DNA of 46,869 bases, from NCBI GenBank assembly GCA_038852285.1, contig JAWCKG010000010.1:1-46869 (forward strand), given 5' to 3'. The notes under the pieces are model-generated. The model had not been told where the DNA came from and ran no database searches. It was given only the letters and a program-made list of their open reading frames with translations. Made by a program: the position numbers and the translations under genes. The stretch's first letter is position 1, and each line of letters starts with the position of its first letter. Of the stretch, positions 16,096 through 39,737 are shown in pieces. The DNA is from Candidatus Bathyarchaeia archaeon (lineage in GTDB: Archaea > Thermoproteota > Bathyarchaeia > 40CM-2-53-6 > DTGE01).

Positions 16096-16110
16096 GAGAT
16101 CGTTCCTCCT

Positions 16111-18435: not shown

Positions 18436-18492
18436 GATATTTTTAACATAGTTAAGTTTTTCGAACCGTTAACTCTAATACCATCGGCGTTT

Positions 18493-21667: not shown

Positions 21668-21776
21668 TCGATTAACGGAATGCCGAGAGGATAGATGGAA
21701 AATAATTTAAGAATGTTTAATGTAAGTTCAATTTTTTGAAGGTTTTGAAGATTGGATTAAATGCGGGTTGTATTGT

Positions 21777-24122: not shown

Positions 24123-24661
24123 TGGCGTTGGCTGAGTCATGGCAGAAGGCTGAGGTTCCAGGCCCACTTAAAGCCATGCTCATCCCCAATCCTGAAGTCG
24201 CCGCTTCATTGATCTCCAGGTCAAGAAACCCCGTGATTGTTTCAGGCTCGGAGACGCCGAAGCTGGAGATTAACGGAAAAAGATTGATAAAGTACGTGGA
24301 AATGTTGTCCGAAAGGTTTTCAGCCCCGATCGTCGCGACCTCAAACACTGTTAGGGCGTTTGATGAAGATAGATGGCGCAATGTTTACTCCCTAAGCCTC
24401 GCAGAAGCTACGGCGAAGCTGTCAAACCCGGACTGGAGTGTTGAAGGGAAAAACCCGCCACACGACACAGCTTTGTTCATCGGCTTCAAATACTACACGT
24501 TATGGCTGGCCCTTTCAAATCTCAAACACTACGCGGAGCATCTGAAAACGGTTTCCTTGGAGAAATATTATCAGCCCCACGCCGCGTGGTCACTTCCGAA
24601 TTTAACCGATGAACGATGGATGGAAAACTTGGAAAAAATAACTCAAAAAAAGGAGGGTTAA
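24122..24661 (+). CDS. cdhB: CO dehydrogenase epsilon subunit (CdhB)
   Basis: The small partner of CdhA in the alpha2-epsilon2 CODH component, probably involved in electron transfer with flavin. The 179-residue protein shows the family start (WQKAEVPGP...AAASLI-like segment, here EVAASLISRSRNPVIVSG), a VATSNTV strand and an ALFIGFKYYT strand of a nucleotide-binding fold. The ATG overlaps the cdhA stop by one base, and cdhC starts four bases after its end, so the genes are translationally linked. Confidence 0.9.
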   Translation: MALAESWQKAEVPGPLKAMLIPNPEVAASLISRSRNPVIVSGSETPKLEINGKRLIKYVEMLSERFSAPIVATSNTVRAFDEDRWRNVYSLSLAEATAKLSNPDWSVEGKNPPHDTALFIGFKYYTLWLALSNLKHYAEHLKTVSLEKYYQPHAAWSLPNLTDERWMENLEKITQKKEG

Positions 24662-24665
24662 CGCT

Positions 24666-26075
24666 ATGTCGATGTTTAAAGATATGCCTGTCGACGTAGG
24701 CGTCATCTACGAAGGGGAGAGGATTAGGAAACCGGACATGCAGGTAGAGCTGGGAGGCCCAAAAGTTGACCATAAGTTTGAGCTAGTCAGGGTTAAAAAG
24801 CTGGAGGAAGTTAAAGACGGAGAGGTGCAAGTCATCGGCCCAGACTTAAACGAGCTGGAGGAAGGCGCCAGCTACCCCATCGGAATATACATAGAGGTAG
24901 CTGGGGAAAACCTTGAGGAAGACTTGGAGGGAATCATCGAGCGTAGAATTCATGAATACTGCAATTTCATCGAAGGATTTATGCACCTTAATCAACGATA
25001 CGACATATGGATGAGGCTGAGCAAAAAATCCTTCAAGAAAGGTTTAACCTCCTTCAAGCAGATCGGCAAGATCCTCGAACGACTTTATAAAAGCGAGCTC
25101 CCCATTGTGCAGAAAATACAGAGTACCTTCATAACGGATCCGGAGAAGGTTAGGGAGATGTGGGTCACCGCCAATGAGATCTACGAGAAAAGGGACTCTA
25201 GGGCGAGGGGGTTAAAAGACGAGGAGGTGGACTCTTTTTACGGTTGTACGCTCTGTCAGTCCTTCGCCCCCACCCATGTATGCGTCATCACACCTCAAAG
25301 ATACGCTAACTGCGGGGCCATCAGCTGGTTTGACGGAAGAGCCGCCTCCAGGGTTGACCCGAAGGGTCCAATATTCAAGATTGAAATAGGCGAGGTTTTG
25401 GACCCGGTGAAAGGCGAGTACTCAGGCGCCAACGACGCGGTGAAAAAGAAGTCCCTGGGCGAGATCCAGAGGGTCTGGCTTTACACGGCCTTCGGATACC
25501 CCCACACATCCTGCGGATGCTTCGAGGCAGCCGCCTTCTACATTCCAGAGGTCGATGGCCTAGGCATCGTCCACAGAGACTTTAAAGACGTAACCATCAA
25601 CGGTCTCCCCTTCTCCACAATCGCAGACTCCACGGCCGGAGGCAGGCAGGTAGATGGATTCCACGGGCTGTCCATCGAGTACATGAGGTCGCCGAAGTTT
25701 CTCATCGCCGACGGGGGGTGGAATCGAATCGTCTGGATGCCCAAAGAAGTGAAGGAGAGGGTGGGGGGCTTCATCCCAAAAGAATTACAAGATAAGATAC
25801 CAACCGAAGAAGATGTGAAAACCATAGAGGAGCTGAAAGCATACCTACAGGAAAAGCAGCATCCAGTGGTAGAGAGATGGAAGGAGATCCCAAAAGAGGT
25901 GACGGTTGAAGCGCCAGAGGCGGGAGGTCTTCCGGAGGAAGCCATAACGCTGACCCCGCTTGAGGGCCAAACCATCCCGCTAACCGTGGGAGGATTCAAA
26001 ATCGTTCTGAAGGACGCCAAGATCACGGCTAAGAGGGTAATCATAAAGAAAACTGGAGGTAAAAAAGCAGGTTGA
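24666..26075 (+). CDS. cdhC: Archaeal acetyl-CoA synthase beta subunit (CdhC, short form)
   Basis: The second A-cluster protein of the locus, 469 residues, the typical archaeal length without the AcsB N-terminal domain. It has C194, C197, C206, C216 and the CGC pair C283/C285, with the same spacing as the long form. The last 60 residues form the archaeal C-terminal extension (ITLTPLEGQTIPL and GGFKIVLKDAKIT), ending in a basic GGKKAG tail. ATG 24666 has GGAGGG eight bases upstream. The stop overlaps the cdhD start (TTGA). It forms the core of the archaeal cdhABCDE order. Confidence 0.96.
   Translation: MSMFKDMPVDVGVIYEGERIRKPDMQVELGGPKVDHKFELVRVKKLEEVKDGEVQVIGPDLNELEEGASYPIGIYIEVAGENLEEDLEGIIERRIHEYCNFIEGFMHLNQRYDIWMRLSKKSFKKGLTSFKQIGKILERLYKSELPIVQKIQSTFITDPEKVREMWVTANEIYEKRDSRARGLKDEEVDSFYGCTLCQSFAPTHVCVITPQRYANCGAISWFDGRAASRVDPKGPIFKIEIGEVLDPVKGEYSGANDAVKKKSLGEIQRVWLYTAFGYPHTSCGCFEAAAFYIPEVDGLGIVHRDFKDVTINGLPFSTIADSTAGGRQVDGFHGLSIEYMRSPKFLIADGGWNRIVWMPKEVKERVGGFIPKELQDKIPTEEDVKTIEELKAYLQEKQHPVVERWKEIPKEVTVEAPEAGGLPEEAITLTPLEGQTIPLTVGGFKIVLKDAKITAKRVIIKKTGGKKAG
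25221..25295 (+). repeat. 75-base segment shared with acsB (A-cluster coding)
   Basis: Counterpart of 20999-21073; 72 of 75 bases are identical and the three changes are silent. See the gene conversion finding. Confidence 0.8.
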
Positions 26076-27283
26076 GGGAGGAATCGAAAGAGAAAAATCC
26101 CCTAGAAGCCCTCGGACCCCGCATCTTAGAGCTTCTCTCAGACCTGGGGGAGCTGGAGCTTGAAGATGTCGAAATGGAGATAGGGGAGCTGGAGCTTGCC
26201 GTTCAACAGGCCCCCGTAACCGCTCTCCCAGCGGTTAAACCACCAACGGGGTTAAAGCCAAAACCTGAAACATTGTTGTTAGAGGCGTTTAAGCCACCTG
26301 TCATGGAGTATCCAGGCAAGATCGTCGAGGTGACCATAGGGGCCACCAAGTCCGAGGGAGGATCAAGGTTTAACTCCGTGACGATTGGAGGCGAAACCTC
26401 CCCTCCCTTCTACCTGTTTGAAACTCCACCACCTCATAGGCCAGCTGTGTCCATAGATGTCTTCGACATGAAGATTCACCTCGCTAGCGCGGTGAGGATG
26501 CATGTGGAAGACGTTATCGAGGATCCGGGTGAATGGGCTAAGCGGGCTGCGGAGAAGTGGGGAGCCGACGTCATAAACCTACACTTGATAAGCGTTGACC
26601 CATTGCTTAAAAATACAGCTCCAAGGGAAGCCTCTAAAACAGTGGAGGATGTTTTACAGGCTGTTAAGGTTCCATTAGCGGTAGGTGGATGCGGCGATCC
26701 TGAAAAGGACATAGCAGTGTTCAAGAGGGTTGCTGAGGACTTTAAAGGTGAACGTTTACTGTTCAACTCCGTCACCCTGGACATGAACTTGAAGGAGGCG
26801 GCGGAGTCCATCGTTTCAAACGGACACGTATTAATCGCCTTCACACCGATGGACATGGATAAGGCTAGGGAGCTGAACAGGAGGCTGTACGAATACGTGG
26901 AGAAGGATCGAATCGTGATCGACACCACCACAGCGGCCCTGGGATACGGGTTAGACTACGCCTTCACGATTATGGAGAGAACTAGGCTCGCGGGGTTGAT
27001 GGGCGACCCTGAGCTTCAACATCCCCTTTCCTCGGGTACGACCAACGCGTGGGCCGCAAGGGAGGCGTGGATGCAGATGGATCCCCAGTGGGGTCCAAGG
27101 GAGTTTCGCGGACCCTTATGGGAAACGGTGACGGCCACAGTCCTCCTACTAGCTGGGGTGGACTACTTCATGATGATGCATCCAGCGGCCGTGAAAACCT
27201 TGAAAACCCTCATAGAGGAGTTCTGCTCAGGGCTGAAGGGTCCGGATGAAAACTACCTCGACTGGCTAACATTGAAAACATAG
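26072..27283 (+). CDS. cdhD: Corrinoid iron-sulfur protein small subunit (CdhD)
   Basis: Delta subunit of the corrinoid methyl carrier that delivers the methyl group to acetyl-CoA synthase. The TIM-barrel core starts after an N-terminal acidic and Pro-rich linker (about residues 1-75). Family blocks are GGETSPPFYLFE, ADVINLHLISVDP, VPLAVGGCGDPEKD, LIAFTPMDMD, TTTAALGYGLDYAF and SGTTNAWAAREAWM. The TTG start at 26072 overlaps the cdhC stop, with GGAGGT upstream. Length of 403 is near the archaeal norm. The cdhE reading frame follows within 12 bases. Confidence 0.94.
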   Translation: MREESKEKNPLEALGPRILELLSDLGELELEDVEMEIGELELAVQQAPVTALPAVKPPTGLKPKPETLLLEAFKPPVMEYPGKIVEVTIGATKSEGGSRFNSVTIGGETSPPFYLFETPPPHRPAVSIDVFDMKIHLASAVRMHVEDVIEDPGEWAKRAAEKWGADVINLHLISVDPLLKNTAPREASKTVEDVLQAVKVPLAVGGCGDPEKDIAVFKRVAEDFKGERLLFNSVTLDMNLKEAAESIVSNGHVLIAFTPMDMDKARELNRRLYEYVEKDRIVIDTTTAALGYGLDYAFTIMERTRLAGLMGDPELQHPLSSGTTNAWAAREAWMQMDPQWGPREFRGPLWETVTATVLLLAGVDYFMMMHPAAVKTLKTLIEEFCSGLKGPDENYLDWLTLKT

Positions 27284-27289
27284 GAGGGG
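27283..27289 (+). promoter_or_regulatory. Ribosome binding site that points to an ACG start for cdhE
   Basis: GGAGGGG directly after the cdhD stop, six bases before the ACG at 27296. There is no ATG, GTG, TTG or CTG in the cdhE frame between the in-frame TAG at 27281 and the conserved cysteine motif. Confidence 0.6.
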
Positions 27290-27295
27290 AGTTAT

Positions 27296-28699
27296 ACGCC
27301 TAAAACAATCAGCCCAACCGAGATCTACAAGCATCTACCGCGCACGAATTGTAAGGAATGCGGCGAAGACAGCTGTATGGCATTCGCCACAAAGCTCGCC
27401 AACTGGGAGGCAAGCTTGGATAAATGTCCTCCCCTTCAGAAACCTGAATATAGGAATCGCCTTGGAACCCTTAACGAGATGCTGAAACCCCCTGTGCGAG
27501 AGGTTTCCTTAAAGTCGAAGACAAGAACCGTGAAAATTGGGGGGAAACTGGTCATGTACAGGCATGAGCTCACCTACTTCAACCCCACAGCCATCGCCAT
27601 AGATGTTCACGACGAGATGGATGATCAAATCCTCACCAGCCGGGTGAACGCGACCCAGGGGTTCAGCTACGAGTACATCGGGCAGAGGTTAAAGCTGGAT
27701 TTAATCGCCGTCCGCTCCACTTCCAACGACCCTAAAACCTTCGAGTTGACCGTTAAAAAGATAGTCGCCCAAACAGAGCTACCGCTGATCTTATGCAGCG
27801 AAAACCCAGACGTCTTAGAGGCGGGCATCGTCGCGACGGGCGGTGGAAAACCCCTCTTATACGCGGCGTCGAAACAGAACTGGAAGCAGATGGCGGAATT
27901 GGCGTTGATGTACGATTGCCCTTTAACGGTGACGTCTCCATTCGACTTGGAAGGCTTGAAAAGCCTCGTGAAGACGTTAAAGGAGTCAGGTGTTAGAGAA
28001 CTGGTCCTTGACCCAGGGGTGTCTTGGAAAACGCTTCCAGATACTGTCAACAACTTTACCATGATTAGGAGAGCGGCATGCAAGTTTGATGACGAGTTAA
28101 TGGGCCTGCCCATTCTAGGCGTACCAGCTCAAGTGTGGGTGGAGGAAGATGTGAAACCTGAGGTCTTGGCTTGGAGGGAGGTATGTCTCTCCTCGATGCT
28201 CATCACCAGATACGCTGACGCGTTGATCATGCACACCACGGAGGGCTGGGCCCTCCTACCCCTCGTCGTTTTAAGGCAAAACATGTACACGGATCCTAGA
28301 AAGCCCGTGGCAGTGGAGCCTGGTTTAAAGGTGTTCGGACAACCGAATGAGGCCTCACCGGTGTTGTTCACCACGAACTTCGCGTTAACCTACTATACAG
28401 TGGCCTCGGACATAGAGTCCGGTAAAGTAGACTGCTACCTTGTGGTGGTCGATACTGAAGGCCTATCAGTGGAGAGCGCCGTGGCGGGGAGGAAGCTGAC
28501 CGCTGACAAGGTGGCGGACTCCCTGAAGGAAACTGACGTGGAGAAGAAAGTAAAACACAAGACGTTGATAATACCCGGTCGAGCCGCTCGGATAAGCGGT
28601 GAGCTTGAAGAGCTCTCAGGATGGTCTGTGCTGGTTGGTCCAATGGATTCCTCGGGAATCCCAAAGTTCGTCCAGGAAAAGTGGGCTAACCGAGCCTAG
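27296..28699 (+). CDS. cdhE: Corrinoid iron-sulfur protein large subunit (CdhE), apparent ACG start
   Basis: Gamma subunit, carrying a [4Fe-4S] cluster, a TIM barrel and a C-terminal corrinoid-binding domain. Starting at ACG 27296 the protein reads PKTISPTEIYKHLPRTN and then the cluster motif C19-x2-C22-x4-C27-x16-C44, the usual CdhE N-terminus. The first canonical start, ATG 27377, lies inside this motif and would delete three cysteines. The corrinoid end is recognisable as SPVLFTTNFALTYYTVASDIE and a SGWSVLVGPMDSSGIP segment. Length is 467 residues. ACG initiation, or an ATG-to-ACG change or read error, are the options. The gene ends two bases from the opposite-strand cdhE2. Confidence 0.9.
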   Translation, partial: TPKTISPTEIYKHLPRTNCKECGEDSCMAFATKLANWEASLDKCPPLQKPEYRNRLGTLNEMLKPPVREVSLKSKTRTVKIGGKLVMYRHELTYFNPTAIAIDVHDEMDDQILTSRVNATQGFSYEYIGQRLKLDLIAVRSTSNDPKTFELTVKKIVAQTELPLILCSENPDVLEAGIVATGGGKPLLYAASKQNWKQMAELALMYDCPLTVTSPFDLEGLKSLVKTLKESGVRELVLDPGVSWKTLPDTVNNFTMIRRAACKFDDELMGLPILGVPAQVWVEEDVKPEVLAWREVCLSSMLITRYADALIMHTTEGWALLPLVVLRQNMYTDPRKPVAVEPGLKVFGQPNEASPVLFTTNFALTYYTVASDIESGKVDCYLVVVDTEGLSVESAVAGRKLTADKVADSLKETDVEKKVKHKTLIIPGRAARISGELEELSGWSVLVGPMDSSGIPKFVQEKWANRA

Positions 28700-28712
28700 C
28701 CTATGCCTCGGT
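28689..28712. terminator. Possible bidirectional transcript-end hairpin between cdhE and cdhE2
   Basis: ACCGAG (28689-28694) and CTCGGT (28707-28712) form an inverted repeat with a 12-base loop, and further imperfect pairing (GGG with CCC) flanks it. It spans both stop codons of the tail-to-tail genes. Archaeal termination usually uses T-tracts, and none is present here, so the function is uncertain. Confidence 0.3.
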
Positions 28713-30068
28713 AACCCCTAGTTTACGCAGGTAGGTAGGAAGCTCAGCTGAGTCTTCAGGGCCGATTAAAACCCTCCAACCAGAACCCTCCTCCACCTCT
28801 CCTTTCATCTTGGAAAAACCTCGGGGCAAGACGACCATCCGCTCCGAAACCTTGCCTTCAACCTCCTTCAACAATTTGGCGATTGATTCGCCGTCAACCA
28901 TCCCCCCGGCCACAGCGTTCTCCACCGACATGCCTTGGGAATCCACTACGAGCAGATAACAGCTCGCCTTCCCCGCTTGAAGGTCGCTGAAGACTAAGTA
29001 GTAGGTTAAAGCATAGTTGGTTGTAAGCACCACAGGTGAGTGAGAACCCGGTTTTCCCACCACGTATAGGCCAGGAGTAACCTTAGCGGGCTCCCGAGGG
29101 TTAGAGTAGTATCCCTGCCTTAACGCGTAAAGGGGCGCCATCGCTAACCAGTCCATCCAGCTTAACACAACAGCGTCTGCGTACCTTAAAACGCAAGCTG
29201 CGCCCGTCAGAGACTCCATCCAAACCGGGTCAAGGATGCTGCTTGAAAAGCCCTCGTGCTGGGCTGGGAATGCTAGAATGGGATGTTGAAAACCCGACAC
29301 CCCATGCTCTATGGCGGCGATCCTTATCTGAATCAAAGTGGAAACTAAACTTTTTAAACCGTTTCTGGGCGTCGGGTTTAAAACTACCTGGCATCCCTTG
29401 GATGAAGCCTTCTCAGAAAGACGATACAACTCACTAACGCTCCGTGAGGAAACGGCTATGGGACATTCTGCTCCACGGGAAACCTCAATATACTGCTCCA
29501 AAACGCCTCCGTGAGCGCCGCAAAGCACAGGCTTCAACTCAGCCAACGTATCTAAAGCCTCGTCTCCTATAGGGGAGGCGCAGGAAATCATCAGGGGTTT
29601 ACCCGCGTATTCGTCGACTTGTCGAAGCAGTTTGAGGGTTCGTTCATCTAGTTTCGAACACTTTAAGTATATGAAGTCTACTCCATAGGTTTCCCAGCCC
29701 ACCGTAAGCTTAAAATCCCCTATCCTCCGGATCTGCGAGAGCGTTTCGTCATGGTGGTTTTCAACTTCCACCTCTACGCCTAGGGCGGTGGGATGGTAAA
29801 ACCTGTGAATATGTCTGTGAAGCGATTTCTCACCTCCTATGCATAGGATCCTCCCCCTTCCGAAACATGCTTTTCTCACCGGCGGTGAGATGAGTTTGAG
29901 TAGTTCATCCTTATTCTTCCCGGTGAGGTGTGGGCATTCATCCAACTCTGCGGCGTCTTCCATGAGCTTTAAGGCGAACGCCATGCATGTGGGTACGTTG
30001 CACTCACCGCAGTTTCGACCTGGAAGGAGCCTGTACACGGTTATGGGTGAAGTTTTTTCCCCAGACAT
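28701..30068 (-). CDS. Second corrinoid iron-sulfur protein large subunit (CdhE2)
   Basis: A diverged paralogue of CdhE, 455 residues. It keeps the cluster motif (C20-x2-C23-x4-C28-x16-C45), the barrel, and the corrinoid-side blocks SPVVLTTNYALTYYLVFSDLQ and SGWRVLIGPEDSAELP, so it looks functional. Inserted or changed segments include CFGRGRILCIGGEKSLHRHIH and several extra cysteines. ATG 30068 with AAAGGTGA upstream is preferred over GTG 30077, whose GTGA would overlap the cdhD2 stop. Symbol left open; it pairs with cdhD2 and is transcribed against the main cdh operon. Confidence 0.85.
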   Translation of the reverse strand: MSGEKTSPITVYRLLPGRNCGECNVPTCMAFALKLMEDAAELDECPHLTGKNKDELLKLISPPVRKACFGRGRILCIGGEKSLHRHIHRFYHPTALGVEVEVENHHDETLSQIRRIGDFKLTVGWETYGVDFIYLKCSKLDERTLKLLRQVDEYAGKPLMISCASPIGDEALDTLAELKPVLCGAHGGVLEQYIEVSRGAECPIAVSSRSVSELYRLSEKASSKGCQVVLNPTPRNGLKSLVSTLIQIRIAAIEHGVSGFQHPILAFPAQHEGFSSSILDPVWMESLTGAACVLRYADAVVLSWMDWLAMAPLYALRQGYYSNPREPAKVTPGLYVVGKPGSHSPVVLTTNYALTYYLVFSDLQAGKASCYLLVVDSQGMSVENAVAGGMVDGESIAKLLKEVEGKVSERMVVLPRGFSKMKGEVEEGSGWRVLIGPEDSAELPTYLRKLGVTEA

Positions 30069-30073
30069 CGAGT

Positions 30074-31066
30074 TCACCTTTTGAAGGCTTCTCGCACCGC
30101 TTCCAAGGCTTTGGGGTGCATGATGGCTGTTAAATCAGACCCAGCTAGGGTTAAGATGGTCGCGGTGTGGGCCTCCCATAAGGCTCCCCTCACACGGGAG
30201 GGTGGTAGCTGAGGGTCTTCCATCCAAGCCTCTCGGGCTTTCCAGGAAGCGGGAGCAGCCCGCAGGGCTGCGATGGGGAATCGGGTTAGCTCATCGCCCT
30301 TCAACCCATCTAATCGAAGCTGCTCCAAGATGGATATGGAGTATTCTACGCCCAGCCCCAGGGAGGCCGTGGTGGGATCCATAAGGAGGCTATCCTCAGG
30401 TAGCCCAGCTTCGAGGAGCTTGGAGTTTAAGGTTCTCTGCGTTGTGGGGTCGCAGTCGGTTTCAGCCACCACCGCGTGGCCGTTTTGCAAAGCCGCCTTC
30501 ACTATGAGCCTATAGTTGTTCGTTAATGAGGCTGAGGCCAAGGCCCCCCTCCCATTCATCTTCACGGATAGGCGGTGGATTACCTGGCTGACCAGGTTTG
30601 AGTTTCCATCGACATCTAAGATTAGGGGTATGTCGCAGCTCTCTGAGACTTGCTCCACAACCCGTCCGGCCTGGGTTACCCACTCCTCCCAGCCTCCCTC
30701 CTTCACATCCAGCCTGAGGGAAATGGCGTCTGGATGAACCTCATCCATCTGCTTTAAAGCCCATTTGATCGGATCCTTGAGTTGATCCCCAAACTCGCGG
30801 ACTATGGGCTCAGGGTAGCGGTCGACCGTTTCAGCCACGCACAACGCCAACGCTGGCATGAAGGGCTGAGTTGAAAAGAGGGGAAGGGACCTAGCCCCTC
30901 CTAGGCTTAACTCTCCGCCTCCCTTAGCCTTTAACCTCACTTCGACGATAGGATGCTCGAACACCTGTTCGAAAACCTTGAGTTTAGGCCTTAAATACTC
31001 GTAGATGTCCTCCATAATACCTGCCCAAATGGTTGGAACGCCATCGAACCCTAAATACCCCTCCAC
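30074..31066 (-). CDS. Second corrinoid iron-sulfur protein small subunit (CdhD2)
   Basis: A diverged and shorter paralogue of CdhD, 330 versus 403 residues, without the N-terminal linker. Barrel blocks correspond: HPDAISLRLDV, DIPLILDVDGN, NGHAVVAETDCDPT, LMDPTTASLGLGVEYSI and APASWKAREAWM. The segment matching SPPFYLFE in CdhD is replaced by RSLPLFSTQPFM. The likely start is GTG 31066; an ATG at residue 18 is an alternative. With CdhE2 it forms a two-gene unit divergent from the CooC gene. Confidence 0.82.
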   Translation of the reverse strand: MEGYLGFDGVPTIWAGIMEDIYEYLRPKLKVFEQVFEHPIVEVRLKAKGGGELSLGGARSLPLFSTQPFMPALALCVAETVDRYPEPIVREFGDQLKDPIKWALKQMDEVHPDAISLRLDVKEGGWEEWVTQAGRVVEQVSESCDIPLILDVDGNSNLVSQVIHRLSVKMNGRGALASASLTNNYRLIVKAALQNGHAVVAETDCDPTTQRTLNSKLLEAGLPEDSLLMDPTTASLGLGVEYSISILEQLRLDGLKGDELTRFPIAALRAAPASWKAREAWMEDPQLPPSRVRGALWEAHTATILTLAGSDLTAIMHPKALEAVREAFKR

Positions 31067-31118: not shown

Positions 31119-31898
31119 TTGTCTAATTCCAAGGTTATCTCGGTTTCAGGTAAAGGCGGGGTTGGAAAGACCACGGTGGTGGCCTTGATGCTTAGGAACT
31201 TCTTGGCTCAGGGTGGGCGATCCATTTTGGTAGTTGACGCTGATCCGTCAACAAACCTCCCCGACATTTTAGGCGTTCCTGTGGAGAAGACCGTTGGGAT
31301 GGTGACGGATGAGTTGAAAAGGGAGATCGCTAAGGGCTCCGTTTCTTCTACGATTTCGAAGGAAAGTGTCTTGGAGGCTAGGGTTTTCGAAGTGTTGGCT
31401 GAAACCCCTGAGTTCGACTTATTGGCCATGGGGCGGTCTGAAGGTGAAGGATGCTATTGCATGGTTAACCACATGCTTACCAAAGTGGTTGACGCCCTCT
31501 CAAAGAATTATGATTTAACCCTAATGGACATGGAAGCTGGGTTGGAGCATTTAAGTCGAAGAACGGACAGGGATGTTGACATCATGTTGATCGTCACCGA
31601 TCAGTCGAAGATGGGCCTCCAAACAGCGAAAAGGATCAAGGACCTGGCCAAGGAGGTTCACATAGAGTTTAAGGAGATGTACTTGATTGGAAACAGGTTT
31701 GAGGAAACCCTAACACCCTCCTTTCAGAGGGCCGCCGAAGCTCAGGGGCTCACCTTCCTCGGAGCTATACCGCCGGATCCCGATGTGTTAAAGTTTAGCG
31801 TGGAGGGAGTTTCGCTGCTAAGGCTGCCGCTCGAGAACCCCGCGGTAAAGAAGACAGGTGAATTGATGGGGAAAATGGGCCTACTGGACGCGTTGTAA
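31119..31898 (+). CDS. cooC: CooC-type nickel-insertion ATPase
   Basis: A 259-residue MinD/SIMIBI-class ATPase that matures nickel sites of CODH and/or acetyl-CoA synthase. The P-loop is GKGGVGKTT (residues 9-17) and VVDADPSTNL follows. The nickel-binding CxC motif is at C112 and C114, the same positions as in Rhodospirillum CooC. VTDQSKMGLQTAKRI and LIGNRF are further family blocks. TTG start with AAGGAGGGA five bases upstream. Located between the two corrinoid protein sets and the C1 branch, it could serve one or both of the A-clusters as well as the C-cluster. Confidence 0.9.
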   Translation: MSNSKVISVSGKGGVGKTTVVALMLRNFLAQGGRSILVVDADPSTNLPDILGVPVEKTVGMVTDELKREIAKGSVSSTISKESVLEARVFEVLAETPEFDLLAMGRSEGEGCYCMVNHMLTKVVDALSKNYDLTLMDMEAGLEHLSRRTDRDVDIMLIVTDQSKMGLQTAKRIKDLAKEVHIEFKEMYLIGNRFEETLTPSFQRAAEAQGLTFLGAIPPDPDVLKFSVEGVSLLRLPLENPAVKKTGELMGKMGLLDAL

Positions 31899-31910
31899 TC
31901 TTATGGTGAG

Positions 31911-32204
31911 CTATGTTCTTTCAATTCTGCTTTTAGCCATGGTTCCGGATGAAAGCTCGTAGGACAGCTCCTCCCAAGAGGTTGGGTGGAAGCTTAGCAT
32001 CGACTCTGTCTTCTTCACATAGGGCAGCCTCCTGATCCTCATGATCGTTTTGTCGATGGCTTCAGAATCCCCCTCCAGCACCACGACTAGGTCGAAGGCC
32101 CCATGTACAACATCCGCATAGACTATGCCTTCCACCGTGGCTAGATGAGCGAGAATGTCAGACTCCCGGCCTGGTTGAATGTCCACCAAAATATACGCTC
32201 TCAT
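31911..32204 (-). CDS. Stand-alone Lrp/AsnC ligand-binding (RAM) domain protein
   Basis: A 97-residue protein consisting only of the alpha-beta sandwich of Lrp regulators (AYILVDIQPG, a GIVYADVVHGAFDLVVVLEG block, RRLPYVKKTESML). There is no helix-turn-helix. Such orphans can bind amino acids or modulate full-length Lrp proteins. It is convergent with cooC and follows mch by about 60 bases on the same strand, so it may be the last gene of the fwd-mch transcript. Its ligand is unknown. Confidence 0.82.
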   Translation of the reverse strand: MRAYILVDIQPGRESDILAHLATVEGIVYADVVHGAFDLVVVLEGDSEAIDKTIMRIRRLPYVKKTESMLSFHPTSWEELSYELSSGTMAKSRIERT

Positions 32205-32268
32205 AGGTTAAACATGCCATTATTCAAGATTTAAATCTAACTATCTCATGTTTAGGATTCGCGAGCCT

Positions 32269-33264
32269 TTACGTCCATGGTTTAAAACGCGTGTATTGGA
32301 GGCTCCGTCTCAACACGCTCCAATTGACTTCACCGGCGCTGTGGGTTGCTCCACTACTCAAATTGTTTACAGCTATGAATGCTGGGGCGAAGAATCCCGG
32401 GTCAACCTTGTAGAAATCATAGTCCGCGGCCTTGAAGACCTCGTAGAAGGGTTTACCGTAGTCCTTTGAGCTTGATGACGGGGCGCTCTTAACCAACTCG
32501 CACAGCCTTTCATCATCTTCCATGTTTACTGTGAAGAAAACTTCCCCCGCGTAGGTGATAACGTCGTTAGTTCTCCCCATGGCCTTAAAGTCGTCAGGGT
32601 GTATAGGGGCTATGGGAGCGCTTCCTATCCCATGGACAACGCTCTTAGGGTTTAGGCTTAGGGTTTTTAACCGGTGAAGACCTGTTTCAACGATTCTTCC
32701 TGAGATTTGCACGGAGCCGACGATGCTGGAGGTTTTAGCGACTACAACGTATAGGTTTTTAAGGTTAACCTTACATTTCTCGGCAATGTATTTTAAGGCT
32801 TGGTCGGTTGGCAGCTTCGAAGACTCCAACACTAAGACGGCTTTCTCCGATTGATCCCGGTAACCTATTTCCTCGTACAGCTCTTTAGGGTCGAGGGACA
32901 GGGCCCTCGCGGGGCCCGACCCCATGGCGAAGTAGTCCTCCGTTTTTATCCTCCAACCCGCGAACTGAGACGCCAACAGCGACTCCACGGGATGGCTGGT
33001 TTCCACGGTGATGGTTGGAAGGGTGTAGCCGTTAAAGCTTCGGATTGATATTGAAGCTTCACCTAACCCCCCCATGCACGCGAGGGTTACAAGCCTACCG
33101 GCTTCATAGCTTCCCTTCGCCTTAACTCCCGCGTCCACGATGACCGATCCTCCTACCCCGAGCGTCACATCGACTGCCAGCCTCTCGGATTTAGCGATCA
33201 ACTCCTCGACGAAAGGCATCGCGGAGTTGTTGACGCTGATCTGTTCCTCTTCATCAGAGCTCAA
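32269..33264 (-). CDS. mch: Methenyl-H4MPT cyclohydrolase
   Basis: Interconverts 5-formyl- and 5,10-methenyl-tetrahydromethanopterin. Diagnostic segments are SVNNSAMPFVEELI at the N-terminus, ACMGGLGEASI, SSIVGSVQISGRIVETGLHRL, HGIGSAPIAPIHPDD and AMGRTNDVITYAGEV. Length is about 331 residues. TTG 33264 has an AGGTGG ribosome binding site and starts two bases after the fwdC stop; GTG 33276 would overlap fwdC. It is the last C1 gene of the fwd operon. Confidence 0.93.
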   Translation of the reverse strand: MSSDEEEQISVNNSAMPFVEELIAKSERLAVDVTLGVGGSVIVDAGVKAKGSYEAGRLVTLACMGGLGEASISIRSFNGYTLPTITVETSHPVESLLASQFAGWRIKTEDYFAMGSGPARALSLDPKELYEEIGYRDQSEKAVLVLESSKLPTDQALKYIAEKCKVNLKNLYVVVAKTSSIVGSVQISGRIVETGLHRLKTLSLNPKSVVHGIGSAPIAPIHPDDFKAMGRTNDVITYAGEVFFTVNMEDDERLCELVKSAPSSSSKDYGKPFYEVFKAADYDFYKVDPGFFAPAFIAVNNLSSGATHSAGEVNWSVLRRSLQYTRFKPWT

Positions 33265-33266
33265 CC

Positions 33267-34100
33267 CTACTCCCACCTACCTAGATATTTCTCAAACCAT
33301 GTGAAGTGGGGGTTTTTATCCTTCGCCACATATATTCGGCCTTGACCCTGCTCATTATTGTCTCCTGTGAACATGTAGAAGGCTCCCTCAACTTTCATCG
33401 TCACCAAGTCAGCGTGGGTTCTGAGGCTGTCCAATGTAAAGCTGGGTAGGATGTTTGGCACCGCTCCAAGTATGGCAATCCTTCCGCCAGTCATCTCAGC
33501 CCCCATCCTGCTCGCGCAGTCTCCTTCCACCAGGATTGATCCGCCCTGCATGTGGACGCCTAGAAATGGCCCAGCTGAGCCTTTGACGTGGATTAAACCT
33601 CCCTTCATCCATCCCCCTCCTTCGCATCCAACGCTTCCTTTCACTTGAATCACGCCTCCCGACATGCCTTCCCCAGCCCCCCTGTATGAGGCTCCCAGGA
33701 AGTCTCCGGCTGAGCCGTTGATGGCTATGGATCCGCCTCGCATGCCTGATCCCGCCCATGAGTCCACATCTCCTTCAACGGTTATCACCCCACCCTTCAT
33801 CCCCTCCCCTAAGTATATGCCCCCATTTCCCTCCACTCTAATCTCCCCAGTCTTCATCCTAAAACCGATTCTACGCGCGTTCCTTAAATCCCCCATAATG
33901 GTGAGTTTGAGGGGTTGATCCTCGCCGCTTGAGCGCTCCTCCACCTTGAAGAATCGAGAGAGCTCAAACATTCTTTTACCCGCGTACACCTTCACCTTCC
34001 CTACATCTTCCGCGCTCATCCCGTCGAGCGCCTCAGGAGTCAATGGTGAAAGGTCTAAGGGGAGATTCATAGTGTTCCTATAGTTTAATACGATTTCCAT
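33267..34100 (-). CDS. fwdC: Formylmethanofuran dehydrogenase subunit C
   Basis: Beta-helix subunit of the tungsten or molybdenum formylmethanofuran dehydrogenase. Repeated glycine-rich turns of the type GGxIxVxGxxG are visible from about residue 85 to 215 (GGVITVEGDV, GGSIAINGSA, GGVIQVKGSV, GGLIHVKGSA, GGSILVEGDC, GGRIAILGAV). Length of 277 residues is typical. The gene lies six bases after fwdA. Confidence 0.93.
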   Translation of the reverse strand: MEIVLNYRNTMNLPLDLSPLTPEALDGMSAEDVGKVKVYAGKRMFELSRFFKVEERSSGEDQPLKLTIMGDLRNARRIGFRMKTGEIRVEGNGGIYLGEGMKGGVITVEGDVDSWAGSGMRGGSIAINGSAGDFLGASYRGAGEGMSGGVIQVKGSVGCEGGGWMKGGLIHVKGSAGPFLGVHMQGGSILVEGDCASRMGAEMTGGRIAILGAVPNILPSFTLDSLRTHADLVTMKVEGAFYMFTGDNNEQGQGRIYVAKDKNPHFTWFEKYLGRWE

Positions 34101-34106
34101 CCGGGT

Positions 34107-35813
34107 TCACCTCGCCGGCGCGACTACATGAGGGTTAGCTAAATACTCATCCTCAATTACGTAGTTATCCAATCCCACGGTGTAATATTCCCTGAATTTT
34201 CCGGAGATGTTGGAAATGAGGCTTTCCCGGGCCTCTTTTGATAGCGGTGGCTTAACCCAGTATGTTCTTCCCAGCATTGAACTGACAATTTCCCCGTCCT
34301 TGCACACGATCGAGCCGTCTTTGATGGTGTAGGTGGCCTTCCTAAACGCCTTCCTTACTTTCAAATAATCTCGGGACGGGTCAACCTGTTTAGGATCCAA
34401 ATTATAGACGGCGATGTCCGCGTCGGCGCCAGGGGCCAGGTGGCCCTTCCACGCAAGCCCAAGGCTTTTAGCCTGAGCGGCCCTCGTGACCACGGCTACT
34501 TCATTTAAGCTGTACTCTCGATCTACGTCTTCGAGGTGAAGTCTCCTCCTAGCCGTACTGTTAATTTTACGCAGCAGCCTCTTTCGAGCTCTCCTGCTCA
34601 TGAGCCAAGATATGACTTTAGGATACTCGGTGAAGGGGCCGCCGTTGGGGTGGTCCGTAGTCATTTGCACGCGCCATGGGTCCTTCACTAGGAGGGCTAA
34701 CTCTAGGCCAATGCCCCATTGGATGGCGTTTACATAGTTTCCTTTCCGGTACCGGAAGGGTACGACGCCCGCTCCCGTTTCCACCTCAACATCGCTGTTC
34801 GCCCACTTGTTCCCTGAGAGGAGGTGGAGGAGGAATTGGAAGGAGCCGTCAGCGGTCATGGTGGTAGTGTCTCCGAAAACGATTTGCCCAACATCTATCT
34901 CCGCGTGCTGGTTTTGGTTAAGGTACTCGGCGATCTCAGGGGCGCCGGAGCCGACGTTGATCCAGGAAGTGCCGCTCCGACCGGTGAATTGAACATGCGT
35001 GACGTGGATGATGGGTTGGCCGTTTGAGGTTGAAGCCATGTCTTTGACGGAGTCCATGGTTTCGATGGTTGTCTCATAGTTTCCAGGCTTAGCCATGTTG
35101 TTCGTATGTACGTGTATGGGGTGGGGGTTTTTCAACTCCAAATTTATCTTACACAGCCATCGGATGATCTCTCTGGGTGTAATCTCGAACCATGGCACCG
35201 GCTCATCCAAGTATGTGATGTATTTTCCCCAGGCCCAGGCTTCAACGCCTCCTGGGTTCACGATCTTAACAGCGTATCCCTTAACAGCCTCTAAGAGCCA
35301 GGCTACGTAATCTCGGCATTCCTCGTACTTGTTTTCCCTGATGTAATCCATTATAAACCAGTTGTTCCCCATTAAGGGGAAGCAGCCCTTGTCGATGATT
35401 GGGGTTTCGTCGAGCTCTTCATGGGTGTGTCTTGTCTTTAGTGGGGGTGTGGCGGGCTCGAAGACGGTGGTGTATCCCATTTCAACGTACCTGTACCCGG
35501 TGATGTAGGTGGTGGGCACCGAGTGGCCGACTCCAGCTCTGCGTAGTCCGCTTCTAGGCAATACGTCTTTCACATGATCCTCCGGCCTCATCAGCCTTCC
35601 AACGTTAACCTTGGTTCCCGCTATGTGGGAGTGTACGTCGACTCCCCCGGGCATGATCACCATATGGGATGCGTCAACCTCCTCAGCGTTCTTTAACGGG
35701 CCTTCCACGATCCTTCCATCCTTGACGTATATGTCCATTCTCTCCCCTTCGACGCGGTTGAGGGGATCGTAAACTAAGCCGTTCCTAATTACGAGGCCGC
35801 TCATTTTCATCAC
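34107..35813 (-). CDS. fwdA: Formylmethanofuran dehydrogenase subunit A
   Basis: Amidohydrolase-like subunit with a binuclear metal centre that condenses formate with methanofuran. The metal motif GGVDVHSHIAG has its histidines at H61 and H63, and MTTDHPNGGPFTEYP holds the catalytic Asp of the family. HPIHVHTNNM and HVTHVQF supply further metal ligands. Length of 568 matches known FwdA. The ATG overlaps the fwdB stop (ATGA); a second ATG three codons later is possible. Confidence 0.95.
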   Translation of the reverse strand: MMKMSGLVIRNGLVYDPLNRVEGERMDIYVKDGRIVEGPLKNAEEVDASHMVIMPGGVDVHSHIAGTKVNVGRLMRPEDHVKDVLPRSGLRRAGVGHSVPTTYITGYRYVEMGYTTVFEPATPPLKTRHTHEELDETPIIDKGCFPLMGNNWFIMDYIRENKYEECRDYVAWLLEAVKGYAVKIVNPGGVEAWAWGKYITYLDEPVPWFEITPREIIRWLCKINLELKNPHPIHVHTNNMAKPGNYETTIETMDSVKDMASTSNGQPIIHVTHVQFTGRSGTSWINVGSGAPEIAEYLNQNQHAEIDVGQIVFGDTTTMTADGSFQFLLHLLSGNKWANSDVEVETGAGVVPFRYRKGNYVNAIQWGIGLELALLVKDPWRVQMTTDHPNGGPFTEYPKVISWLMSRRARKRLLRKINSTARRRLHLEDVDREYSLNEVAVVTRAAQAKSLGLAWKGHLAPGADADIAVYNLDPKQVDPSRDYLKVRKAFRKATYTIKDGSIVCKDGEIVSSMLGRTYWVKPPLSKEARESLISNISGKFREYYTVGLDNYVIEDEYLANPHVVAPAR

Positions 35814-37111
35814 GTTAAAAGCTCTTTCACCCTGGATAGAAGGTCGGACATGATTTCAACGTCCGTTTTAACCCCGGGCGGCGGGTCTAGGATTCTCTTA
35901 CATTCGAGGGGGACTCCGTCCATTCGATAAACCGTTCCAGTCGACTCTAGGCCAATGATGGCTGAGGGTATCACGATCTGTGAGGCCTCGGTGGTGGGTG
36001 TTCGATGGGGGTCGATGGTGATTAGGGGGATTTTCTTCAACGTTTCAGCAAGGGTTGAAGGGAGGTGGGCTATTGGATCTGAAGCGACGATGAGGGCTGC
36101 GTCGCATTCCCCTCTTCTTAACACGTCGGAGATCGTTGTGATCCCTGGGTTGTACTCCGGGTAGCCTTTGCTGAGGTCTACTCCGAACGGATATCCTGTG
36201 ACCCAGGTGAAGACTTCGTTTGAGCCCGTGACGTTGAAGTGGCCTCTCATGGGCATGATGAGAAACTTGGTTTTACGGTTTAGGTCCCTTACCAGGGAGA
36301 GGGCTGCGTCTAGGTTTCTGCTCTTCCCATACGTCATGGTTAACCCTAACCCGTAGAATAAGACGCCGAACCTACAGCTTATCAGCGCGTCAGCCAACTC
36401 TTCAACCCTTTCCACGGGCAATCCGGATACGGTGCTTAACTCTATTTCCTCACCGTTCACGGCGCATCTGAGGGCGGTCAGTAGCTCGTAGTCCGAGTTT
36501 GGTTCGATTTGATAAAACTCGTCAGCCAACTTAGCTGTCTCCGTCCTTCTGACATCCACGACGATGAGCTTCCTCTCCCTTCTTGAAGCTACGAACCTGC
36601 CCTTGGCTAGGGCGGTGTACCTGGCCATATGTCTTGGATGGGCGTTGACCGGGTTGGATCCCCAGTAAAGGATCAGGTCCGCCCTATTCTTAACCTCGCC
36701 TAAGCTACACCCTGAGATCCCGATATCTTGAACTCCGATAAGTCCCGGTCCATGGCAGACAGAGGAGTTATTATCGATCACCCCGCCTACCAGCTCGGCG
36801 AGCTCTAACCCGAGTTCAACGGCCTCGCAGGAGGTTAAACACCAACCCCATAGAACTGGGTAGTTGGAGTTCACCAACAGGCGCGCGGATTCCTGTATAG
36901 CCTCCTTGTAGGAGGTTTCCTTGAACCCGTTCCCCACTCTCATGAGGGGTTTAAGAATCCTTTCGGAGCTGTAATGTTTAAATTTGCTTAGAGCGAGGCT
37001 GCATGCGTTTTCAACTCTCTCAACCCTACCATCTGTGACCTCCACGTTTAGGTCGTCGCAGCAACAACCGCAGACAGTACACACTGCGCCTCTGATCAAC
37101 ACCTCTATCAT
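35810..37111 (-). CDS. fwdB: Formylmethanofuran dehydrogenase subunit B (CO2 reductase)
   Basis: Molybdopterin/tungstopterin-dependent subunit reducing CO2 to formate. The N-terminal [4Fe-4S] motif is CTVCGCCCDDL...ENAC, and C119 in SSVCHGPG is the expected metal-coordinating residue; it is encoded as Cys, not selenocysteine. Later blocks LILYWGSNPVNAHPRHM and MPMRGHFNV are typical. Length is 433. It overlaps fwdD and fwdA by four bases each. No ferredoxin-type subunits (FwdF/G) are nearby, so the electron donor route is not visible here. Confidence 0.95.
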   Translation of the reverse strand: MIEVLIRGAVCTVCGCCCDDLNVEVTDGRVERVENACSLALSKFKHYSSERILKPLMRVGNGFKETSYKEAIQESARLLVNSNYPVLWGWCLTSCEAVELGLELAELVGGVIDNNSSVCHGPGLIGVQDIGISGCSLGEVKNRADLILYWGSNPVNAHPRHMARYTALAKGRFVASRRERKLIVVDVRRTETAKLADEFYQIEPNSDYELLTALRCAVNGEEIELSTVSGLPVERVEELADALISCRFGVLFYGLGLTMTYGKSRNLDAALSLVRDLNRKTKFLIMPMRGHFNVTGSNEVFTWVTGYPFGVDLSKGYPEYNPGITTISDVLRRGECDAALIVASDPIAHLPSTLAETLKKIPLITIDPHRTPTTEASQIVIPSAIIGLESTGTVYRMDGVPLECKRILDPPPGVKTDVEIMSDLLSRVKELLT

Positions 37112-37449
37112 CCCTTGAGAATTTCTGCTTCAATCCCCTTAAGGGATGGCATACCGCTGCCATCGGTGTGTGGACTGGTTAAGAGGCTAGCCACCGGTCC
37201 GTAGGGTATGAAGATTACCCCTTTATGGGGTGCTCTGGTTGACGCTTTCGCGATCAGTTTGGCCTCGCCGAACTCCGTCTTCACCACTATTGACTCTCCT
37301 TCTACGAGGGAGAGTAGCTTCATGTCTTCTGGGTCAAGCTCACACGTGGAGACTTCTTTTAAGTAATCTTCCGAGAATTTTCCCCTTTCCTTGCCTGCGC
37401 CTTGAATCAGAGTTCTCCCGGTTACAAGCTTAAAACTATTCAAATCCAC
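37108..37449 (-). CDS. fwdD: Formylmethanofuran dehydrogenase subunit D
   Basis: A 113-residue molybdopterin-dinucleotide binding subunit. LVTGRTLIQGAGKERG opens the protein, LSLVEGESIVVKTEFGE is the beta-barrel core and FIPYGPVASLL with HTDGSGMPS ends it. First gene of the fwdD-fwdB-fwdA-fwdC-mch operon. GTG start with GAGGAG upstream. Confidence 0.92.
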   Translation of the reverse strand: MDLNSFKLVTGRTLIQGAGKERGKFSEDYLKEVSTCELDPEDMKLLSLVEGESIVVKTEFGEAKLIAKASTRAPHKGVIFIPYGPVASLLTSPHTDGSGMPSLKGIEAEILKG

Positions 37450-37478
37450 TAACCACTCCTCAAAACGCTAAACTACGG

Positions 37479-37490
37479 CTTAAAATTAAG
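37479..37490 (-). promoter_or_regulatory. TATA-type promoter of the fwd-mch operon
   Basis: On the minus strand CTTAATTTTAAG lies 30-41 bases before the fwdD start at 37449. The remaining spacer to 37720 (about 230 bases) shows no gene, and the 271-base gap suggests that mtd is a separate transcript. Confidence 0.42.
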
Positions 37491-37720
37491 GAAAAATGCC
37501 TCTAAATAACTTACGGTGCGTAATCGCGTGAAAGGGTTTAATGAGTGGTTTAAACATCGCTGACATAACCAGAAATGTGTGGACTTGGGTGGATTTTTAA
37601 TCTCGATAGGGTGAAAGCCATCAAAATTTTATTGAACCTCGTGACTTCGCTACCTTTATCTTTTGAGGATTATGGCGCGCGGTTTTTAATCGTTTGGGTG
37701 AGCTTCACATGGTTGAGTTT

Positions 37721-38548
37721 TCAGGAAGGCTTTTCGACAAGTCTTCTTTTCTGGAGTATTGATCCATCATCGGCGTGGGGTGTTCTGTAGAGTTGGTCGT
37801 TTGACTTCTCAATTTCTCTCGCTTCGTCCGCTATCAAGGCGGCCTTTCTCATCAATTCGTGAGCAGCCGCGGCTAGAACGGTGTATCTTTCCCACTCTTT
37901 TATTTGGAAACACGCTTTTACTGTTAAATCAGAGACCTTCTTAGCCATTTCGAAAGCCGTGATGGCTTTGGCCTTAGCGTAAGGGTTCTTGAAGGAAGCG
38001 GCTTCAACCGCTTTCTCGCTGTCGATGATGAGCCTTGGTAATGTGGGTTTTCGCTTTTCCACCACATCTCGGATCATTCGATCCATTTCATCCCTGATTA
38101 CGTTGAACACCCCTGTGACGGCGAGCACCTTGATGACATCTGCGTTGAACAAGGCCATCTCTGCTGGGTCTAGGAATTCCCTCCTAGCCCCGATCATGGA
38201 GTCAGCCTCCACTATGACGTAACCTACACCCAGCCCCTCAAATTTTTCTAAAGCCTTTTTGGCAGGTGAGTCCGAGACCACTGTTGCAGGACATCCTTTA
38301 CTCGACAGGATTTCAACCGCTTTCAAAGGTCCTGGAAGAGATGCGTTTGGGCTGGTGAGGATCACTAACTCGGGATTAAACGCGTCGAGGGCTTCGGTTA
38401 ACTCAACAGCTTCCTCTACCCCTAGTTTAGCGCCAGAGGAGACTACCCTAACCTTCAATCCCTCCCTTTCAGCTCTTTCATCTAGGAGGAATTCGATCAT
38501 GGGTGCTGAGCCTATGTTCCCTAATTTTAAAAATCCCACCTTCGTCAA
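37721..38548 (-). CDS. mtd: F420-dependent methylene-H4MPT dehydrogenase
   Basis: Reduces methenyl- to methylene-tetrahydromethanopterin with F420H2. Diagnostic segments are VGFLKLGNIGSAPMIEFLLDERA at the N-terminus (shown here from residue 4), VTSP-like LTSPNASLPGPLKA, SDSPAKKA, EADSMIGARREFLDP and LPRLIIDSEKAV. Length of 275 is normal. TTG start at 38548 with GAGGT upstream. Its presence implies coenzyme F420. No Mer (methylene reductase) is in the window, so the last step to methyl-H4MPT must be encoded elsewhere. Confidence 0.93.
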   Translation of the reverse strand: MTKVGFLKLGNIGSAPMIEFLLDERAEREGLKVRVVSSGAKLGVEEAVELTEALDAFNPELVILTSPNASLPGPLKAVEILSSKGCPATVVSDSPAKKALEKFEGLGVGYVIVEADSMIGARREFLDPAEMALFNADVIKVLAVTGVFNVIRDEMDRMIRDVVEKRKPTLPRLIIDSEKAVEAASFKNPYAKAKAITAFEMAKKVSDLTVKACFQIKEWERYTVLAAAAHELMRKAALIADEAREIEKSNDQLYRTPHADDGSILQKRRLVEKPS

Positions 38549-38582
38549 GAGATCAAACCTCAGAGATATTTTCTAGTTAATG

Positions 38583-38594
38583 GATTTTTAAGGT
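38583..38594 (-). promoter_or_regulatory. TATA-type promoter of mtd
   Basis: On the minus strand ACCTTAAAAATC lies about 40 bases before the TTG of mtd. The spacer 38549-38709 has no other feature that I recognise. Confidence 0.42.
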
Positions 38595-38709
38595 TTAAAC
38601 ATTAAAGGACCCAGTTGGCGTAAGCGAGCCTCAGCCGATCGCCGTCTCCGATGTTTCAGCAGGGTGTTAAAAAGAGTTGCATTATCTCTTTAAATTTCGA
38701 TTCAAACCA

Positions 38710-39588
38710 CTAGCATTTCGACCTGCGGACCATGTATTTTGCGATTTCATCAGATATGTTTGTAGAGGTTACCTGTTGGATCCCTCGCCAACCAGGTTGG
38801 GAGTTAACCTCGATGACCAGTGGCCCCTCCGGGCCCTCAACGATGTCTATGCCCGCGATTTCGCATCCTATAGCTTCAGCCGCTTTGATGGTAAGGGATT
38901 CCAGCTCTCCTGAAAGCTTTAACGGGATGGGTTTGGCTCCTTGGCTGATGTTTGTCTTCCACCTTTTTGAAACCCTTCTCATGGCTGAGACCAAGCGGCC
39001 TCCGATCACAAAAGCCCTAATGTCGCTTCTGCCATGAGGTATAAACTTCTGGAGGTAGAGAACATGCCTCAAGAACGTGAGGGTTCGAGCGGATCTTTCA
39101 AGAACGTCTTTATTTGATATAAGGGTTAAGCCAATCCCTCTGGATCCGAATAGGGGCTTCAAGACAACTCTTCCACCCATCCGTATAGACGCCTTCAAAG
39201 CCTCCCGATGATTCATGGTGACGTATGTTTCAGGGACTGGAATCCCCTTTTCCTTCAACTTGGAAATCGTATGATACTTGTCGGCCGCGACCTCTATGGT
39301 TTCGGGGTCGTTGACGACAACCACCCCATTCGCCTTGAGGCGGTGCAGCGCGTCTAACTCGAATATAACCTCTTCCAGGGATCCTCGGCCAATGGGACGC
39401 ACCAAGATGCTTGAAACATACTCCTTTAAATCACAGCCTTTGACCAAGAACCGCTCCTTGTCTTGAAGCGTAATCAGAAGATCCCTGAAGTTGAAGCAAA
39501 AAGCCTCTACGCCGAGCCTATTAAAAGATTTTCTAAGATTGGAGGAGCACCAAGCGTTCTCGTTGCGCGTTAATAAGCCAATCCTCAA
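38710..39588 (-). CDS. RimK-type ATP-grasp ligase, probable MptN or CofF
   Basis: A 292-residue ATP-grasp enzyme of the RimK family: ADKYHTISKL and IPVPETYV at the ATP-grasp entry, VVLKPLFGSRGIGLT with the ATP-binding glycine loop, YLQKFIPHGRSDIRAFV and GIDIVEG-EGPLVIEVNSQPGWRGI at the metal site. In archaea such enzymes add glutamate to tetrahydromethanopterin precursors (MptN) or to F420 (CofF). Position directly upstream of mtd, which uses both cofactors, supports one of these; which one cannot be told from sequence by eye. Promoter-like GCGTTATATGG lies upstream near 39635. Confidence 0.78.
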   Translation of the reverse strand: MRIGLLTRNENAWCSSNLRKSFNRLGVEAFCFNFRDLLITLQDKERFLVKGCDLKEYVSSILVRPIGRGSLEEVIFELDALHRLKANGVVVVNDPETIEVAADKYHTISKLKEKGIPVPETYVTMNHREALKASIRMGGRVVLKPLFGSRGIGLTLISNKDVLERSARTLTFLRHVLYLQKFIPHGRSDIRAFVIGGRLVSAMRRVSKRWKTNISQGAKPIPLKLSGELESLTIKAAEAIGCEIAGIDIVEGPEGPLVIEVNSQPGWRGIQQVTSTNISDEIAKYMVRRSKC

Positions 39589-39737
39589 CGGTAACAGCCA
39601 CTAATGGTTGGAGGAGTAAAAAGGGCCATATAACGCTTTTTCCTACACATTAACTTCATGGCTAAAGCCGGTGAATCAATGCTTTTAACGATGACTATCG
39701 CAATTAATTTTAAGGCAATTCGGAAGGTGTAAGTGGT

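Follow-up and report, generated by a model that had tools for sequence, protein, structure and literature searches.

The window analysed here, 46,869 bases making up the entire contig 10 in the genome of an uncultured Candidatus Bathyarchaeia archaeon, carries on its minus strand a run of genes, mtd-fwdDBAC-mch, for the tetrahydromethanopterin (H4MPT) branch of the Wood-Ljungdahl pathway. We judged these genes by curated NCBIfam cut-offs, and the products of all but fwdD passed. The run begins with mtd (37721 to 38548), which starts with TTG and encodes an F420-dependent methylene-H4MPT dehydrogenase (NF002162, 386.3 versus a cut-off of 297 bits). It is followed by fwdD (37108 to 37449), encoding a small pterin-binding subunit; fwdB (35810 to 37111), the Mo/W-bis-pterin CO2-reducing subunit (TIGR03129, 560.9 versus 327.8 bits); fwdA (34107 to 35813), the amidohydrolase-type formyl-transfer subunit (TIGR03121, 794.5 versus 392.75 bits); fwdC (33267 to 34100), formylmethanofuran dehydrogenase subunit C (TIGR03122, 237.4 versus 130.65 bits); and mch (32269 to 33276), methenyl-H4MPT cyclohydrolase (TIGR03120, 399.8 versus 228.8 bits). 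The start of mch is GTG, with alternative starts possible within its overlap with fwdC. FwdD was recognised by NF042908 (E value of 3.5e-24) and by its position, which is kept in relatives; its 85.3 bits lie below the 175-bit cut-off of that model, which is tungsten specific, and the tungsten-specific models for FwdA and FwdC were likewise matched under their cut-offs. A first-pass annotation of the window had listed the same six genes as a cluster, and it was right to do so.

That annotation had also given fwdDBAC-mch 4-base overlaps, which is the case for fwdD/fwdB and fwdB/fwdA, whereas fwdA and fwdC are separated by 6 bases and fwdC and mch overlap by 10. Likewise, mtd is indeed placed just upstream, but across a gap of 271 bases (37450 to 37720). 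Solved archaeal relatives cover nearly the full length of FwdA (9sw6_I, 676.6 bits; 5t5i_A, 671.1 bits), FwdB (5t5i_B, 460.8 bits), Mch (best match 1qlm, E value of 2.1e-101), and Mtd (1qv9, E value of 2.1e-79). Besides, FwdB keeps the CHGP cysteine (residue 119), and FwdA keeps HSH at 61, VKIVN at 182, and HVHTN at 234; we take the CHGP motif of FwdB and the HSH, lysine, and HVH motifs of FwdA to be active-site motifs. Subunits A to D with this cysteine and these histidine and lysine motifs are shared with the tungsten enzyme FwdABCDFG of methanogens (PDB 5t5i), whereas a genome-wide search for FwdF gave nothing at the family cut-off (best of 26 ferredoxin-like matches, 41.8 versus 375 bits).

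The order of the run recurs in related genomes. Mtd was present in 27 of the 61 genomes searched, our own included, and we compared the mtd contexts of 16 of the 26 relatives carrying it. In nine of these (G001, G003, G005, G008, G010, G017, G019, G038, and G059), mtd is followed by fwdD, B, A, C, and mch on the same strand; mtd and fwdD are about 4 kb apart, with other genes in between, in G003, G017, and G019, and fwdC and mch about 3 kb apart in G038. The parts of the cluster are present in rearranged form in G052, and the contig of G012 stops 0.5 kb beyond mtd. Since the same order is kept in relatives at 37 to 69% protein identity, a chance arrangement can be ruled out. Candidatus Hecatella orcuttiae JdFR-11 (L019 and L091), a member of the same class but of a different order, shares the order and orientation of mtd-fwdDBAC-mch (identity to the window of 54% for Mch, 60% for FwdA, and 57% for Mtd) and has CODH/ACS (carbon monoxide dehydrogenase/acetyl-CoA synthase) and CooC-like ATPase genes nearby. 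It differs in that ftr, in what is presumably its genome in our set (G059), lies divergent from mtd at a distance of 211 bases. Indeed, a divergent ftr stands beside mtd in 8 of the 16 contexts, 134 to 1220 bases away, and is not beside mtd either in the window or in G001, the only relative of the same family. The spacing between mtd and fwdD, taken between tblastn matches, is 25 to 83 bases in G010, G005, G008, G038, and G059 and 865 bases in G001. The simplest interpretation is a departure of ftr from the cluster in the family of the window genome, with a widening of the distance between mtd and fwdD there as well. Thus, mtd-fwdDBAC-mch is the familiar bathyarchaeal Wood-Ljungdahl cluster with ftr moved away; with its often divergent ftr it represents a lasting gene order in Bathyarchaeia, and the broken order looks like the mark of one family. 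We also considered whether a Fwd electron subunit might be hidden between mtd and fwdD in relatives, and rejected this after scanning the four intervening genes of G003 (a PCC-domain protein, two transketolase halves, and panB) and the open reading frame (ORF) of G001, which has no Pfam match.

CODH/ACS is complete inside the window, as cdhA, cdhB, cdhC, cdhD, and cdhE (21768 to 28699, plus strand) are each above a curated cut-off. The fwd and mtd genes are next to it, as first annotated; between the two lie a second CdhD/CdhE pair, a ParA/MinD-like ATPase, and a small Lrp-like ORF. The first-pass annotation further described the cluster as lacking ftr and mer. This is true of the window and untrue of the genome, in which ftr is located on contig 4 (388.1 versus 297 bits, and 372.4 versus 292.6 bits with a second model) and an F420-dependent mer on contig 1 (414.7 versus 348.7 bits). 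All six sequences listed in the PDB comparison of the latter are Mer; the genome has four luciferase-family genes (contigs 1, 5, 9, and 15), and the Mer model was applied to the contig 1 protein only. FwdABC, Ftr, Mch, Mtd, Mer, and CdhABCDE therefore co-occur in this genome, each above at least one curated cut-off, and the H4MPT branch is complete when the ftr of contig 4 and the mer of contig 1 are included. Their absence from the window is a matter of gene placement and says nothing about the pathway, so we rejected the idea that the organism is marked by missing ftr and mer; it was a tempting error to equate absence from a 47-kb window with absence from the genome. A truncated pathway ending at methylene-H4MPT, whose genes would serve something other than CO2 fixation, is what a window holding neither gene would suggest; with Ftr and Mer above curated cut-offs in the same genome, this is refuted unless their contigs are contaminants, and we give it almost no credence.

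Taken together, the genes very probably encode CO2 fixation to acetyl-CoA by the H4MPT Wood-Ljungdahl pathway, laid out in an old bathyarchaeal order from which ftr was relocated in this family. FwdBD would reduce CO2 with low-potential electrons from a presumed donor, and FwdAC would place the formyl group on methanofuran, from which Ftr, encoded on another contig, would transfer it to H4MPT. Mch and then F420H2-dependent Mtd would yield methylene-H4MPT. Its reduction to methyl-H4MPT might be carried out by Mer with F420H2, by MetVF in association with a [NiFe] hydrogenase and two HdrA proteins, or by both. CdhDE and the acetyl-CoA synthases would join the methyl group to CO from CdhA, giving acetyl-CoA, and an ADP-forming acetate--CoA ligase may convert this to acetate with formation of ATP. 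Electrons would come from H2 via Mvh/Hdr-type complexes, F420 presumably being reduced through FrhB.

The first-pass annotation had preferred an acetogenic or autotrophic archaeon to a methanogen on the basis of the layout. The layout by itself does not separate the two, but the preference agrees with the rest of the genome, in which McrA is absent, the H4MPT branch and CODH/ACS are complete, and an acetate--CoA ligase is present. McrA gave 0 matches in this genome, the stated completeness of which is 98.99%, with both methanogen controls positive. A methanogen or alkane oxidiser with an overlooked Mcr might be argued from Mcr-like enzymes reported in other Bathyarchaeia, as given in the available part of PMC9635834, and from the presence of HdrABC (HdrB and HdrC above cut-off) and an MtrA-like protein. 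The gene for the latter, on contig 2 (L083:9349-10131, 142.9 bits), is the only one of its kind; its product fails the equivalog model TIGR01111 (139.0 versus 249.15 bits) while passing the subfamily model NF002126 (173.3 versus 161 bits). It sits among transporter genes, following genes for a P-type cation ATPase and an SBF-type transporter with ABC transporter genes nearby, and none of MtrB to MtrH was seen among the ten neighbours scanned, a search that was not extended genome-wide. MtrA matches occur in 26 of the 61 genomes (our own included) and exceed 200 bits only in G055 and G059, the presumed Hecatella genome, where the match (223.4 bits) is better than that in the window genome. An overlooked Mcr is thus very improbable, and the gene content supports the reading as a non-methanogen; the finding of mcr and mtr elsewhere in the genome, which the first-pass annotation had named as decisive against its view, did not come about.

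Besides mer, contig 1 carries genes that may act at the same step. A seven-gene run (L014:7944-17830), read from its metF end, consists of metF, metV, vhuA, vhuG, vhuD, and two hdrA genes (650 and 805 amino acids); all are co-oriented, with neighbours at most 19 bases apart and some overlapping. The run is convergent with mer and comes within 305 bases of its end. MetF and MetV were recognised by PF02219 (113.9 bits) and PF12225 (113.3 bits), respectively, and VhuA keeps both nickel-binding cysteine pairs of [NiFe] hydrogenases. Scores of the Vhu and Hdr proteins with their best NCBIfam models are high but stay under the cut-offs, and none of the seven members is above an NCBIfam cut-off for these complexes; because of this, we regard the Vhu and Hdr proteins as homologues and not as strict members. 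No HdrBC gene was found between metF and the second hdrA.

Tentatively, this MvhADG-HdrA-HdrA-MetVF set might catalyse an H2-driven, bifurcating reduction of methylene-H4MPT, with MetVF replacing HdrBC, the reduced ferredoxin driving Fwd, and Mer serving as a non-bifurcating alternative. In relatives, metVF adjoins VhuG and VhuA in G005 and G010, which belong to another family; in G003 and G019, of a third family, it is separated from mch by about 1.5 kb. This co-localisation with mch suggests that MetF may act on H4MPT in Bathyarchaeia. G003 and G019, where metVF showed no neighbouring hydrogenase gene, speak against a general link between metVF and hydrogenase, as does the same-family G001, which has no match to methylenetetrahydrofolate reductase at all. 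Should the set have the proposed activity, it would account for how archaeal acetogens could gain energy when reducing the methylene group, which is an open question for archaea carrying MetF.

This hydrogenase-HdrA-MetVF set outside the window could be the new part of the system. No description of MvhADG-HdrA-MetVF without HdrBC in Bathyarchaeia was found in the accessible portions of the open-licence literature searched, which includes PMC9012536, PMC6085437, PMC5861303, PMC12054007, PMC7886697, PMC8407382, PMC10322722, and PMC11264602. As far as the text available from these papers goes, a near precedent is the type III hdrA with mvhADG reported in Bathyarchaeota (PMC12054007), and MetF has been proposed as a replacement for Mer in the methanotrophic archaea ANME-1 (PMC9012536). 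MetFV-HdrABC-MvhD of Moorella and MetFV-HdrA-MvhD of Candidatus Syntrophoarchaeum, from the same portions (PMC5861303 and PMC9012536), share MetF and MetV with HdrA and MvhD; the contig 1 set differs in having a whole [NiFe] hydrogenase (VhuA, VhuG, and VhuD) and two hdrA genes, in having no HdrBC, and in having mer next door. Candidatus Alkanophaga, in the part available of PMC10322722, also combines mer and metF in one archaeal genome, but it is an Mcr-bearing alkane oxidiser, whereas the window genome has no McrA.

Further redox genes were found where the first-pass annotation had proposed to look for heterodisulfide reductase, in that contig 5 carries an HdrABC-MvhD run in addition to the MetF and MetV genes with HdrA on contig 1. 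On contig 2 (L145:7074-10161), FpoB/D/I-like proteins are encoded beside an FrhB homologue, next to which an Oxidored_q6 protein and a ferredoxin are encoded. The FpoD-like member, a Complex-I-type 49-kDa protein, has CGIC and DPCMCC pairs, i.e., four candidate nickel cysteines, so that the set is possibly an F420-linked hydrogenase. It resembles the Fpo-like hydrogenase (Hfo) of termite-gut Bathyarchaeia, although its second cysteine motif differs at one position from the motif printed in the part of PMC7886697 at hand.

As to the end product, an 897-amino-acid ADP-forming acetate--CoA ligase, one of the enzymes that the first-pass annotation had suggested seeking, was detected by TIGR02717 (576.2 versus 567.15 bits), a model of the alpha part only, on which the assignment rests. 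Its presence makes acetogenesis plausible. The type of system is already known, and acetogenesis by the same H4MPT route has been proposed for other Bathyarchaeia in the accessible text of PMC9635834 and PMC7886697. Several points weigh against the reading as CO2 fixation to acetyl-CoA. The search for an electron-input subunit of Fwd yielded none, FwdG and FwdE being outside it; in 5 of the 16 mtd contexts, the stretch compared shows neither fwd nor mch; McrA and MtrA were the methanogenesis genes searched, MtrB to MtrH not being covered genome-wide; and the genome assembly consists of 42 contigs, with a stated completeness of 98.99% and contamination of 1.78%. Besides, the genes do not decide the direction of flow, which may be toward acetate production, toward acetate oxidation, or toward biosynthesis only.

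The enzymes of the Wood-Ljungdahl pathway are reversible, and the same pathway might run mainly in the oxidative direction, consuming acetate or acetyl-CoA or methyl groups and releasing H2; this would differ from CO2 fixation in direction only. For Hecatella, a capacity for either direction has been proposed (PMC9635834, in the part available), and nothing in the sequence contradicts an oxidative use. The MvhADG-HdrA-MetVF arrangement, however, is at least as consistent with H2-driven reduction, and we consider a mainly oxidative role possible but less probable.

The pathway assignment draws on several contigs of a genome of 1,715,533 bases, and mis-binning of contig 10 was examined. G001 mirrors the window over all genes from mtd through the long acetyl-CoA synthase described below, and the GC content of the window (0.488) fits that of ten other stretches measured (0.407 to 0.517), both of which argue against mis-binning. 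In a single-gene tree of Mch (32 rows), the window falls inside a starred nine-row Bathyarchaeia clade (support of 100/99) that comprises, besides the window and Bathyarchaeota QZM_B1_bin_58, relatives from its family, order, and class, and it adjoins G001 (84/86, not starred). The closest named Mch is that of Hecatella (54%), followed by QZM_B1_bin_58 (53%). By this gene, the host genome groups with Bathyarchaeia.

Other genes of the window were also recognised. Upstream of mtd, a RimK-family ligase (38710 to 39588, minus strand; TIGR00768, 203 versus 143.4 bits) is MptN-like, i.e., similar to H4MPT:glutamate ligase, although below the specific cut-off (NF040720, 254.8 versus 350 bits). Genes for a HycI-type protease, HypD, and HypF for hydrogenase maturation (14192 to 18435, minus strand; PF01750, PF01924, and PF22521/PF17788 above cut-off) adjoin the cdh genes. 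A gene bordering the cdh operon (18343 to 19287, plus strand) encodes an archaeal-type thymidylate synthase-like protein, which reached 124.7 bits with TIGR03283, short of its cut-off of 174.55. A scan for tRNA genes found none in the window, and a sigma-70-type promoter and terminator scan of 31800 to 39700 gave fewer sites than shuffled sequences, the model being uninformative for an archaeon.

Two acetyl-CoA synthases are encoded in the one cluster: the plain archaeal CdhC (24666 to 26075, plus strand) and a long form with a bacterial-type N-terminal domain (19571 to 21667, plus strand; NF007078, 824.3 versus 809 bits). They share 54% identity across the common part, and the catalytic part of the long form matches the archaeal 9c0s (458.7 bits) better than the bacterial 1ru3 (431.5 bits). 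Both forms occur in G001, G005, and G010, and the long form also in G012 and G038; a literature search on the long form in Bathyarchaeia gave no paper combining all aspects sought. Facing the main cdh operon is the second pair (28701 to 31066), which G001 has at the same place, composed of CdhE (28701 to 30077, minus strand; NF003195, 386.7 versus 306 bits) and CdhD (30074 to 31066, minus strand; TIGR00381, 188.2 bits, under the cut-off of 252.9). The best solved relative of this CdhE is the bacterial corrinoid protein 2h9a; transcription activator-like (TAL) effector chains also listed for it were taken as spurious, as no stretch passes by itself.

The ParA/MinD-type ATPase (31119 to 31898, plus strand) has homologues beside cdh genes in L149, L087, and L098. 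Its kind recurs beside cdh or fwd genes in relatives, with two copies in Hecatella (L019). From its position, it is probably CooC-like and a candidate nickel-insertion helper. Finally, on two contigs titled Actinomycetota (L026 and L044), fwdD-B-A is followed by fwdC-mch and an MptN-like gene; in the tree, the Mch of these contigs groups with a Gemmatimonadota row, beside the archaeal rows.

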